Source: Anaerolineae bacterium (GTDB lineage: Bacteria > Chloroflexota > Anaerolineae > Aggregatilineales > JAFGMM01). Taken from it: a DNA stretch of 64,000 nt. The notes under the pieces are model-generated. The model was not told where the DNA came from, searched no databases, and was given only the letters and a program-made list of their open reading frames with translations. Positions 35,880-37,306 of this stretch are shown here, piece after piece. Every line of letters starts with the position of its first letter. Position 1 is the first letter of the stretch. Both the position numbers and the translations under genes were made by a program. Location of the stretch: NCBI GenBank assembly GCA_027494055.1, contig JAOSJO010000025.1, positions 205,262 through 269,261 on the forward strand. The letters run 5' to 3'.

Positions 35880-36032
35880 GCCTGACAGAGTCTGGGAGAC
35901 AGCGCAGATTGGAAACACGAAGACACGAAAGGCGCGAAACATGCGCCCAACCTTTTCGTGCCTTCGCATCTTTCGTGCTTTCGTGTTACGAATCTCCGGG
36001 GCGTGCATCTCCTTTTCCGGACCTTGTCATGC
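35880..36032. repeat. MITE-like palindromic repeat, copy 3
   Basis: 153 bp in the orientation of copy 2, starting GCCTGACAGAGTCTGGGAG and ending CCGGACCTTGTCATGC. It lies just after the glycosyltransferase stop and 21 bp before the thrB promoter. Confidence 0.85.
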
Positions 36033-36053: not shown

Positions 36054-36082
36054 TTGACGATCCGCGCAAGGTGTGCTAGCAT
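36054..36082 (+). promoter_or_regulatory. sigma70-like promoter of the thrB leader
   Basis: TTGACG and TAGCAT are 17 nt apart. The start of transcription would be near 36089, 29 nt before the leader-peptide ATG. Confidence 0.65.
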
Positions 36083-36117
36083 GGCGGTGTTACGCACAGC
36101 AACCGGAATGCAGTTTG

Positions 36118-36204
36118 ATGATCGCTGTTCTGTCCATCACCCGCACCGCGACTACCACCGGCACCGGTCCAGGGATCGGCGGTCTGCTCGCGCGTGTGCG
36201 GTGA
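36118..36204 (+). CDS. threonine/isoleucine-rich leader peptide
   Basis: 28 codons from ATG to TGA. It begins MIAVLSITRTATTTGTGPG: three Ile and six Thr codons, with Thr at seven-residue density around positions 8-16 (ITRTATTTGT). The composition mirrors the E. coli thr operon leader, which is also rich in Thr and Ile. GGA lies 9-12 nt before the ATG. It is followed by the antiterminator and terminator arms and then by homoserine kinase, so ribosome stalling at Thr or Ile codons should govern transcription of thrB. Confidence 0.8.
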   Translation: MIAVLSITRTATTTGTGPGIGGLLARVR

Positions 36205-36248
36205 TCGGGCGACAAGCGCGCACCAGCAAAGAAGGCGTGGAGCAGACC
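36180..36248 (+). promoter_or_regulatory. antiterminator of the thrB attenuator
   Basis: GGTCTGCTC at 36181-36189, inside the last codons of the leader peptide, is an exact complement of GAGCAGACC at 36240-36248, which includes the loop and the 5-prime stem end of the terminator. One further flanking pair (36180 with 36249) extends it to ten. The two structures cannot coexist. A ribosome stalled on the Thr/Ile codons would leave the first arm free; one reaching the stop at 36202 would cover it. Confidence 0.75.
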
Positions 36249-36263
36249 GGCTCCACGCTTTTT
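36235..36263 (+). terminator. attenuator terminator before thrB
   Basis: GCGTGGAGC and GCTCCACGC form a perfect 9-bp stem with loop AGACCG, followed directly by TTTTT. It ends 40 nt before the thrB ATG. Confidence 0.85.
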
Positions 36264-36302
36264 GCTATGAGGGCCACCGCGCGCCCAACGGAGGGCACAG
36301 AT

Positions 36303-37306
36303 ATGGAAAACAATCACCAGGCCGTGAAGGTGTTCGCGCTCGGCAACCATCGCCAATCTGGGGTCGGGCTTCGACGTCCTGGGCCTCGCGCTTGACCAGC
36401 CGGGGGACGTGGCGATTGCCCGCCGCTCCCAGAAGCCGGGGCTGCAACTGGAGATACTCAACGACGGCGGTCGCCTGCCGCGCGAGCCGGAGAAGAACAC
36501 CGCCGGCATCGCGGCGCTGCAGGTGCTCAAGCAGCTCGGCGTCAAGAAAGAGGGGATGTATCTCCAACTGCACAAGGGCATCCCGATGGTGGGCGGCCTG
36601 GGCAGCAGCGCCGGGAGCGCGGTCGCGGGCGCGGTGGCGGCGAACGCGCTCTTTGGCAGCCCCCTGTCGCGCGAGGACCTGATCGAGGCGTGCGTCGCGG
36701 CGGGAGGGCGTGGTGAGCGGGTTCCACGCCGACAACGTGGCGGCGGGCCTGCTCGGCGGCATCGTCATGGTCCGCGAGGGCGGGCGCAGCGTGAGCCGCC
36801 TCCCCGTGCCGACGAAGCTGGTCTGCGCCCTTGCCCTGCCCAGGGTGGACCTGCCGACCTCGGTGGCGCGCAAGGTGCTGCCGCACGACTACCCGCTGAC
36901 CGATGTCGTCACCCAGGCGAGCAATGTGGCGACGCTGGTCTCGGCGCTATACGAGAACGACGTGAAACGCTTCGCCGCCGGCATGGTGGACGTGGTCGCC
37001 GAGCCGACGCGCTCGCGCCTCATCCCCGGCTTTCGAGGCCGCGCGCCGGGCGGCGCTCGACACGGGGGCGCTGGCGTTCATCATCAGCGGGGCCGGGCCG
37101 AGCGGTGTGCGCTATGTGCGACAGCAGCCGCGTCGCCAAGCGCGCGGCCAAGGCGATGGCGGCGGCGTTCAGCAAGGCGGGCGTCGCCTGCGAGAGCCTC
37201 GTCGCCCGGCCCTCCGGAACAGGGGGCGCACGTCGTCAATGGCGAGGAGGAGAACCGGCGCAGGAGCCGCCCGCGCTCGCCACGCCGCCGCCGCCGGAAC
37301 ACATGA
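36303..37306 (+). CDS. thrB: homoserine kinase (several frameshifts)
   Basis: About 335 residues read across frameshifts near 36340, 36705, 37040, 37085 and 37215. The GHMP kinase landmarks are present: [19 protein letters not shown], the phosphate loop [53 protein letters not shown] and [14 protein letters not shown] and GGxG residues are those of ThrB. The enzyme phosphorylates homoserine in threonine and isoleucine biosynthesis, which fits the Thr/Ile leader upstream. The last 30 residues, rich in Arg, may be in the wrong frame. No thrA or thrC is adjacent. Confidence 0.88.

Follow-up and report, generated by a model that had tools for sequence, protein, structure and literature searches.

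In the thr attenuator of Escherichia coli (RF00506), a Thr-rich leader peptide and an intrinsic terminator precede the thrABC genes, and one arm of the antiterminator lies in the codons right past the Thr run. His leaders of Gammaproteobacteria (RF00514), and those predicted in Firmicutes (PMC9413887), follow the same logic; such lineage-specific leaders can go unrecognised by Rfam models. Outside Gammaproteobacteria, terminator control of ilvB by upstream open reading frames (uORFs) is known, and the peptides involved contain many codons for Thr and for branched-chain amino acids. T-box leaders (RF00230) also answer uncharged tRNA with premature termination, but they bind the tRNA directly and involve no leader translation. 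They are known in Chloroflexi (PMC3766115).

Leader-peptide attenuation had until 2010 been found only in Proteobacteria and Actinobacteria, to which a study of that year added a His case from Firmicutes (PMC2965389). Thr leaders were sought in Actinobacteria and none was found (PMC1262725). That attenuators may stem from Gammaproteobacteria, with few transfers, was suggested in 2013 by an Rfam survey whose genomes included five from Chloroflexi (PMC3766115). In the literature that we searched, whose coverage did not extend to one 2010 multi-group survey, we found no report of leader peptides in Chloroflexi or Chloroflexota.

Here, we analyze an element upstream of thrB in a Chloroflexota genome and conclude with high confidence that it is a ribosome-mediated transcription attenuator that senses threonine and controls this gene. 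It shares its logic with the His leaders of Firmicutes and Gammaproteobacteria, which respond to a different amino acid in different phyla, and its codon composition with the ilvB systems, which differ in target gene, respond to branched-chain amino acids and include no thrB case.

A putative attenuator upstream of thrB

The stretch of DNA analyzed, henceforth termed the window, comprises 64,000 nucleotides of contig JAOSJO010000025.1 (assembly GCA_027494055.1) from an Anaerolineae bacterium. Between a promoter and thrB, it contains a leader ORF followed by an intrinsic terminator (Table 1). The initial annotation had proposed these three parts, and each was recovered at its place. The promoter is the sole sigma-70-like match in 700 bases, where shuffled sequences lead one to expect 0.1. 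Thr codons occupy positions 8, 10, 12, 13, 14 and 16 of the leader, i.e., 6 of 28 codons ahead of a Thr-pathway gene, and Ile residues occur as I2, I7 and I20. The Shine-Dalgarno sequence of the leader is weak, which counts against an attenuator.

Table 1. Features of the thrB leader region in window coordinates.
Feature	Position	Strand	Basis or detail
Sigma-70-type promoter, TTGACG (36054-36059), 17 nt spacer, TAGCAT (36077-36082), TG ahead of the -10 box	36054..36082	+	promoter scan
Leader ORF MIAVLSITRTATTTGTGPGIGGLLARVR*, 28 codons	36118..36204	+	6 Thr and 3 Ile codons
Protector hairpin, Thr-codon region with leader end	36132..36208 (approximate extent)	+	minimum-energy folds
Antiterminator left arm CGGTCTGCTC, leader codons 21-24	36180..36189	+	10 perfect pairs with 36240-36249
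Terminator hairpin GCGTGGAGC-AGACCG-GCTCCACGC, intrinsic, arms 36235-36243 and 36250-36258	36235..36258	+	perfect 9-bp stem, folds
Antiterminator right arm GAGCAGACCG, overlapping terminator 5' arm and loop	36240..36249	+	pairing
Terminator U-tract TTTTT	36259..36263	+	sequence
Shine-Dalgarno GGAGGG of thrB	36290..36295	+	7 nt ahead of ATG 36303-36305
thrB, homoserine kinase (GHMP kinase), frameshift-split	36303..37240	+	TIGR00191 and NF002288 matches, in pieces

Among 753 distinct short ORFs in the window, only the leader and one other peptide, present in two copies, contain at least 6 Thr within 9 codons. This second frame, MLPMAGPSSARMTITTTATNTRISAYSTRP, lies at approximately 58380 and 58701, where hairpins resembling terminators are found close by on the minus strand; it may be part of a tandem repeat within a gene on the opposite strand. 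A further feature is a long imperfect inverted repeat at 35914-35990 (ACACGAAGACACGAAAGGCGCGAAAC ... TTTCGTGCCTTCGCATCTTTCGTGCTTTCGTGTT), located past the upstream gene and ahead of the thrB promoter, which may be an extragenic repeat.

The antiterminator helix excludes the terminator, and one of its arms lies in the leader past the regulatory codons. It is an exact complement, as initially described, but is one pair longer than had been noted (10 bp) and its left arm precedes the very last leader codons. When the leader was shuffled by dinucleotides, at least 10 complementary bases arose in 12 of 4000 sequences (0.3%); synonymous recoding produced them in 138 of 20000 (0.7%).

The thrB start codon follows the U-tract after 39 nt (initially counted as 40). 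The leader might instead affect thrB translation or mRNA stability, for example through reinitiation, in line with a hypothesis that leader ORFs near a gene may boost its translation (PMC4833913). According to the same source, reinitiation requires short distances, whereas attenuation requires at least about 40 nt. Here, the leader stop codon and the thrB start downstream of it are 98 nt apart and a strong intrinsic terminator separates them, which speaks against reinitiation, and we regard this account as extremely unlikely.

One convincing thrB was found in the source genome; the other listed TIGR00191 match is weak. Frameshifts split thrB as well as ilvB, hom and trpE in the source assembly. 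Since several conserved genes are affected, the breaks in thrB look like sequencing or assembly errors rather than decay, which is the likely origin of the frameshifts in this genome generally. Single bases are uncertain in an assembly so rich in frameshifts; the leader frame is supported by an intact copy in the relative described below.

Conservation and distribution of the thrB element

Besides the source genome, our genome set contains a single member of the family JAFGMM01, the metagenome-assembled genome of Anaerolineae bacterium isolate Zod_Metabat.474, which is also the closest genome in the set. Promoter, leader, terminator and thrB occur there in the same arrangement, and the promoter shares TTGACGA and TGCTAGCAT with the window. 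The relative's leader, MTVLTFVLTTTTTTGTGCSTGSLLLRGRRR*, can be aligned to that of the window across all 28 codons with no gap; 13 residues are identical, compared with 8 matches in the other two frames. Seven of the 13, Thr codons included, are maintained through synonymous codon changes, so that both the Thr run and its reading frame are kept. The terminator, ACGTGGAGC-AAGCCC-GCTCCACGT, is again followed by a T run, and its outermost pair is A-U in place of the window's G-C, a compensatory change. Across the 10 pairs of the competing helix, we observed three compensatory double changes, one G-U, one broken pair (A-C) and five unchanged pairs; this covariation comes from a single sequence pair, since the thrB element occurs in two genomes only. 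Taken alone, the relative's thrB leader gave p = 0.073 in a duplex-energy test. The sequences show the parts, their order, their conservation in a second genus and their covariation, and the conservation in the relative removes most of the doubt that remained about the element.

Beyond this family, none of 166 thrB upstream regions from about 155 other genomes of the order and phylum combined a Thr leader with a terminator, which limits the thrB attenuator to a single family. Comparison of thrB upstream regions, proposed initially as a check, thus upheld the leader ORF and competing stems within the family but not in these other genomes. A pattern search for TTTGTG plus T5 in 396 genomes of the class, a sample that did not contain Zod_Metabat.474, returned the source genome and unrelated matches in three genomes. 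At a dozen loci of the same order, thrB often lies directly behind a PLP-enzyme-like gene or beside a threonine-synthase-like gene (names from sequence reading); in both attenuator genomes it sits behind its own promoter. Our scan recognised no leader-peptide attenuator at ilvB, hom or thrC of either family member.

At one further locus in the phylum, a terminator before thrB was rejected as a candidate: the hairpin directly follows an upstream fumarase gene and marks its end. Ordinary terminators of upstream genes can therefore occur before thrB, and the window might hold one of these next to a chance Thr-rich frame, with no regulation involved. However, the window terminator lies about 380 nt beyond the upstream stop codon and downstream of the thrB promoter. 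The gaps of 39 nt in the window and about 20 nt in the relative between U-tract and thrB cannot accommodate a further promoter. Conservation with compensatory changes, moreover, extends to the leader frame and to both helices, and the other thrB regions surveyed do not show this combination of Thr leader and terminator. A chance arrangement is thus very unlikely.

Ribosome position in folding models

We modelled folding of transcripts cut off after the terminator loop while masking the ribosome footprint codon by codon. With no ribosome, the predicted antiterminator probability was 0.01 in the window and 0.00 in the relative because the region is held in the protector hairpin. With a ribosome at Thr codons 8-16, the probability rose to 0.92-0.93 in the window, and one on the Thr run through Thr16 gave 0.73-0.85 in the relative; by codon 18 both had returned to 0.00. 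In line with the initial proposal of two states, a ribosome on the Thr run is thus predicted to favour the antiterminator, and one further along or absent is not. One value counts against an attenuator: with the ribosome parked on the stop codon, the antiterminator of the relative was still free (0.82). In the full transcript at equilibrium, the terminator was always favoured, and since it always wins once its 3' arm has been made, a real switch must be kinetic.

As a generic measure we used the degree to which the 5' arm and loop of the terminator are sequestered, and applied the same calculation to the E. coli thr leader (from NC_000913). There, values lay at 0.65-0.70 through codon 14, fell to 0.51 at codon 15 and were 0.18-0.42 beyond. 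In E. coli, the window and the relative alike, the measure drops where the Thr run ends, so that the resemblance to E. coli thr suggested initially holds in the model. When the stretch from Thr run to terminator was shuffled, none of 500 sequences reached the observed change, for the window and for the relative each. By calculation, then, ribosome position would select the structure.

Which amino acid is sensed can also be addressed. Stalling on Thr or Ile codons had been proposed, and attenuation could respond chiefly to Ile, or to both amino acids jointly like that of the E. coli thr operon: the window leader carries three Ile codons, with Ile7 in the modelled switch-on zone. Ile20, however, falls in the off zone, and the relative has T, V and T at the three positions and no Ile codon at all, which leaves Thr as the conserved signal. 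Folds and conservation both support the Thr part of the proposal; Ile is probably not conserved as a regulatory signal, and a response mainly to Ile, or to Ile jointly with Thr, is unlikely.

Histidine leaders and a T-box in Chloroflexota

On the minus strand of the source genome, a leader GTG-NAQRCQHHYHAGFARTAGPVMVAVAA* containing HHYH lies about 90-170 nt upstream of hisG. It has a promoter (TTGACA-17-TACATT) and a terminator (GAACACCCCGG-ACCTG-CCGGGGTGTTT), and in the model its switch value of about 0.7 drops to about 0.14 where the His run ends, which makes it a candidate second leader-peptide attenuator. In the same order, 22 of the 72 hisG upstream regions examined (the source genome and 21 others) combine a His leader with a terminator. 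They come from families f1, f3, f4 and f8, carry three to six closely spaced His codons, and have their terminator 31-66 nt before hisG. Elsewhere in the phylum, 7 of 70 sampled hisG regions showed the combination, in other families of the class and once outside it. Rfam amino-acid leader families gave no match among ten of the His leaders searched (E up to 0.1).

In a crude folding test, the gain in sequestration upon a His stall exceeded all 30 shuffles for 12 of the 22 order leaders and was negative for four. Over 28 His leaders, duplex energies were better than those of shuffled sequences (combined p = 2e-5), although related sequences are not independent. Given His leaders before hisG in many Chloroflexota, the thrB attenuator is not the lone case that it first appeared to be, while the suggestion that such an element was undescribed in this phylum agrees with the literature searched.

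Upstream of trpE, the source genome has a T-box leader (87.1 bits, gathering 93; locus positions 803-1133), so this bacterium seems to use T-boxes and leader-peptide attenuators alike. A T-box or threonine riboswitch might accordingly be considered for thrB too, yet its leader yielded no match to the T-box covariance model or to a riboswitch at E up to 10, and we give this explanation virtually no weight. The best match was to Thr_leader (RF00506), at full model length, with 19.9 bits and E = 0.31, below the gathering threshold of 55; the relative's leader had no Thr_leader match in the Rfam search.

Discussion

We infer ribosome stalling, kinetic control and a physiological response to threonine as follows. 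RNA polymerase would start near 36089 and a ribosome would translate the leader. With ample charged Thr-tRNA, the ribosome would clear the Thr run and cover or leave the remaining leader; the arm at 36180-36189 would then be masked or held in the protector hairpin, the terminator (36235-36263) would form and transcription would stop. With scarce Thr-tRNA, a ribosome stalled at Thr codons 8-16 would block the protector hairpin. The freed arm could then pair with 36240-36249 before the terminator 3' arm exists, and the polymerase would continue into thrB. Very probably, then, this Chloroflexota bacterium senses threonine shortage by a stall on a Thr-rich leader that spares thrB RNA from an early end.

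The element differs from the E. coli thr attenuator in that it acts on thrB alone and its Ile codons are not conserved; it also has a different sequence, a longer leader and a Chloroflexota host. The likeness between the two is likely convergence. The best reading of our data is classic attenuation in a phylum for which we found no earlier report, and the failure of Rfam models to recognise Chloroflexota leaders may be why they were missed.

Most likely, the thrB element is real, conserved and of the classic kind, belongs to thrB alone in one family, and forms part of wider leader-peptide attenuation in Chloroflexota. We think it probable that attenuation is a widespread, independently evolved mode of control in this phylum, at hisG in several families and at thrB in one, alongside T-boxes. 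A Thr switch with covarying helices, together with His leaders in several families, would extend the mechanism to Chloroflexota. If so, transcription and translation would be kinetically coupled in these bacteria, and since attenuation requires a ribosome close behind RNA polymerase, such coupling becomes testable.
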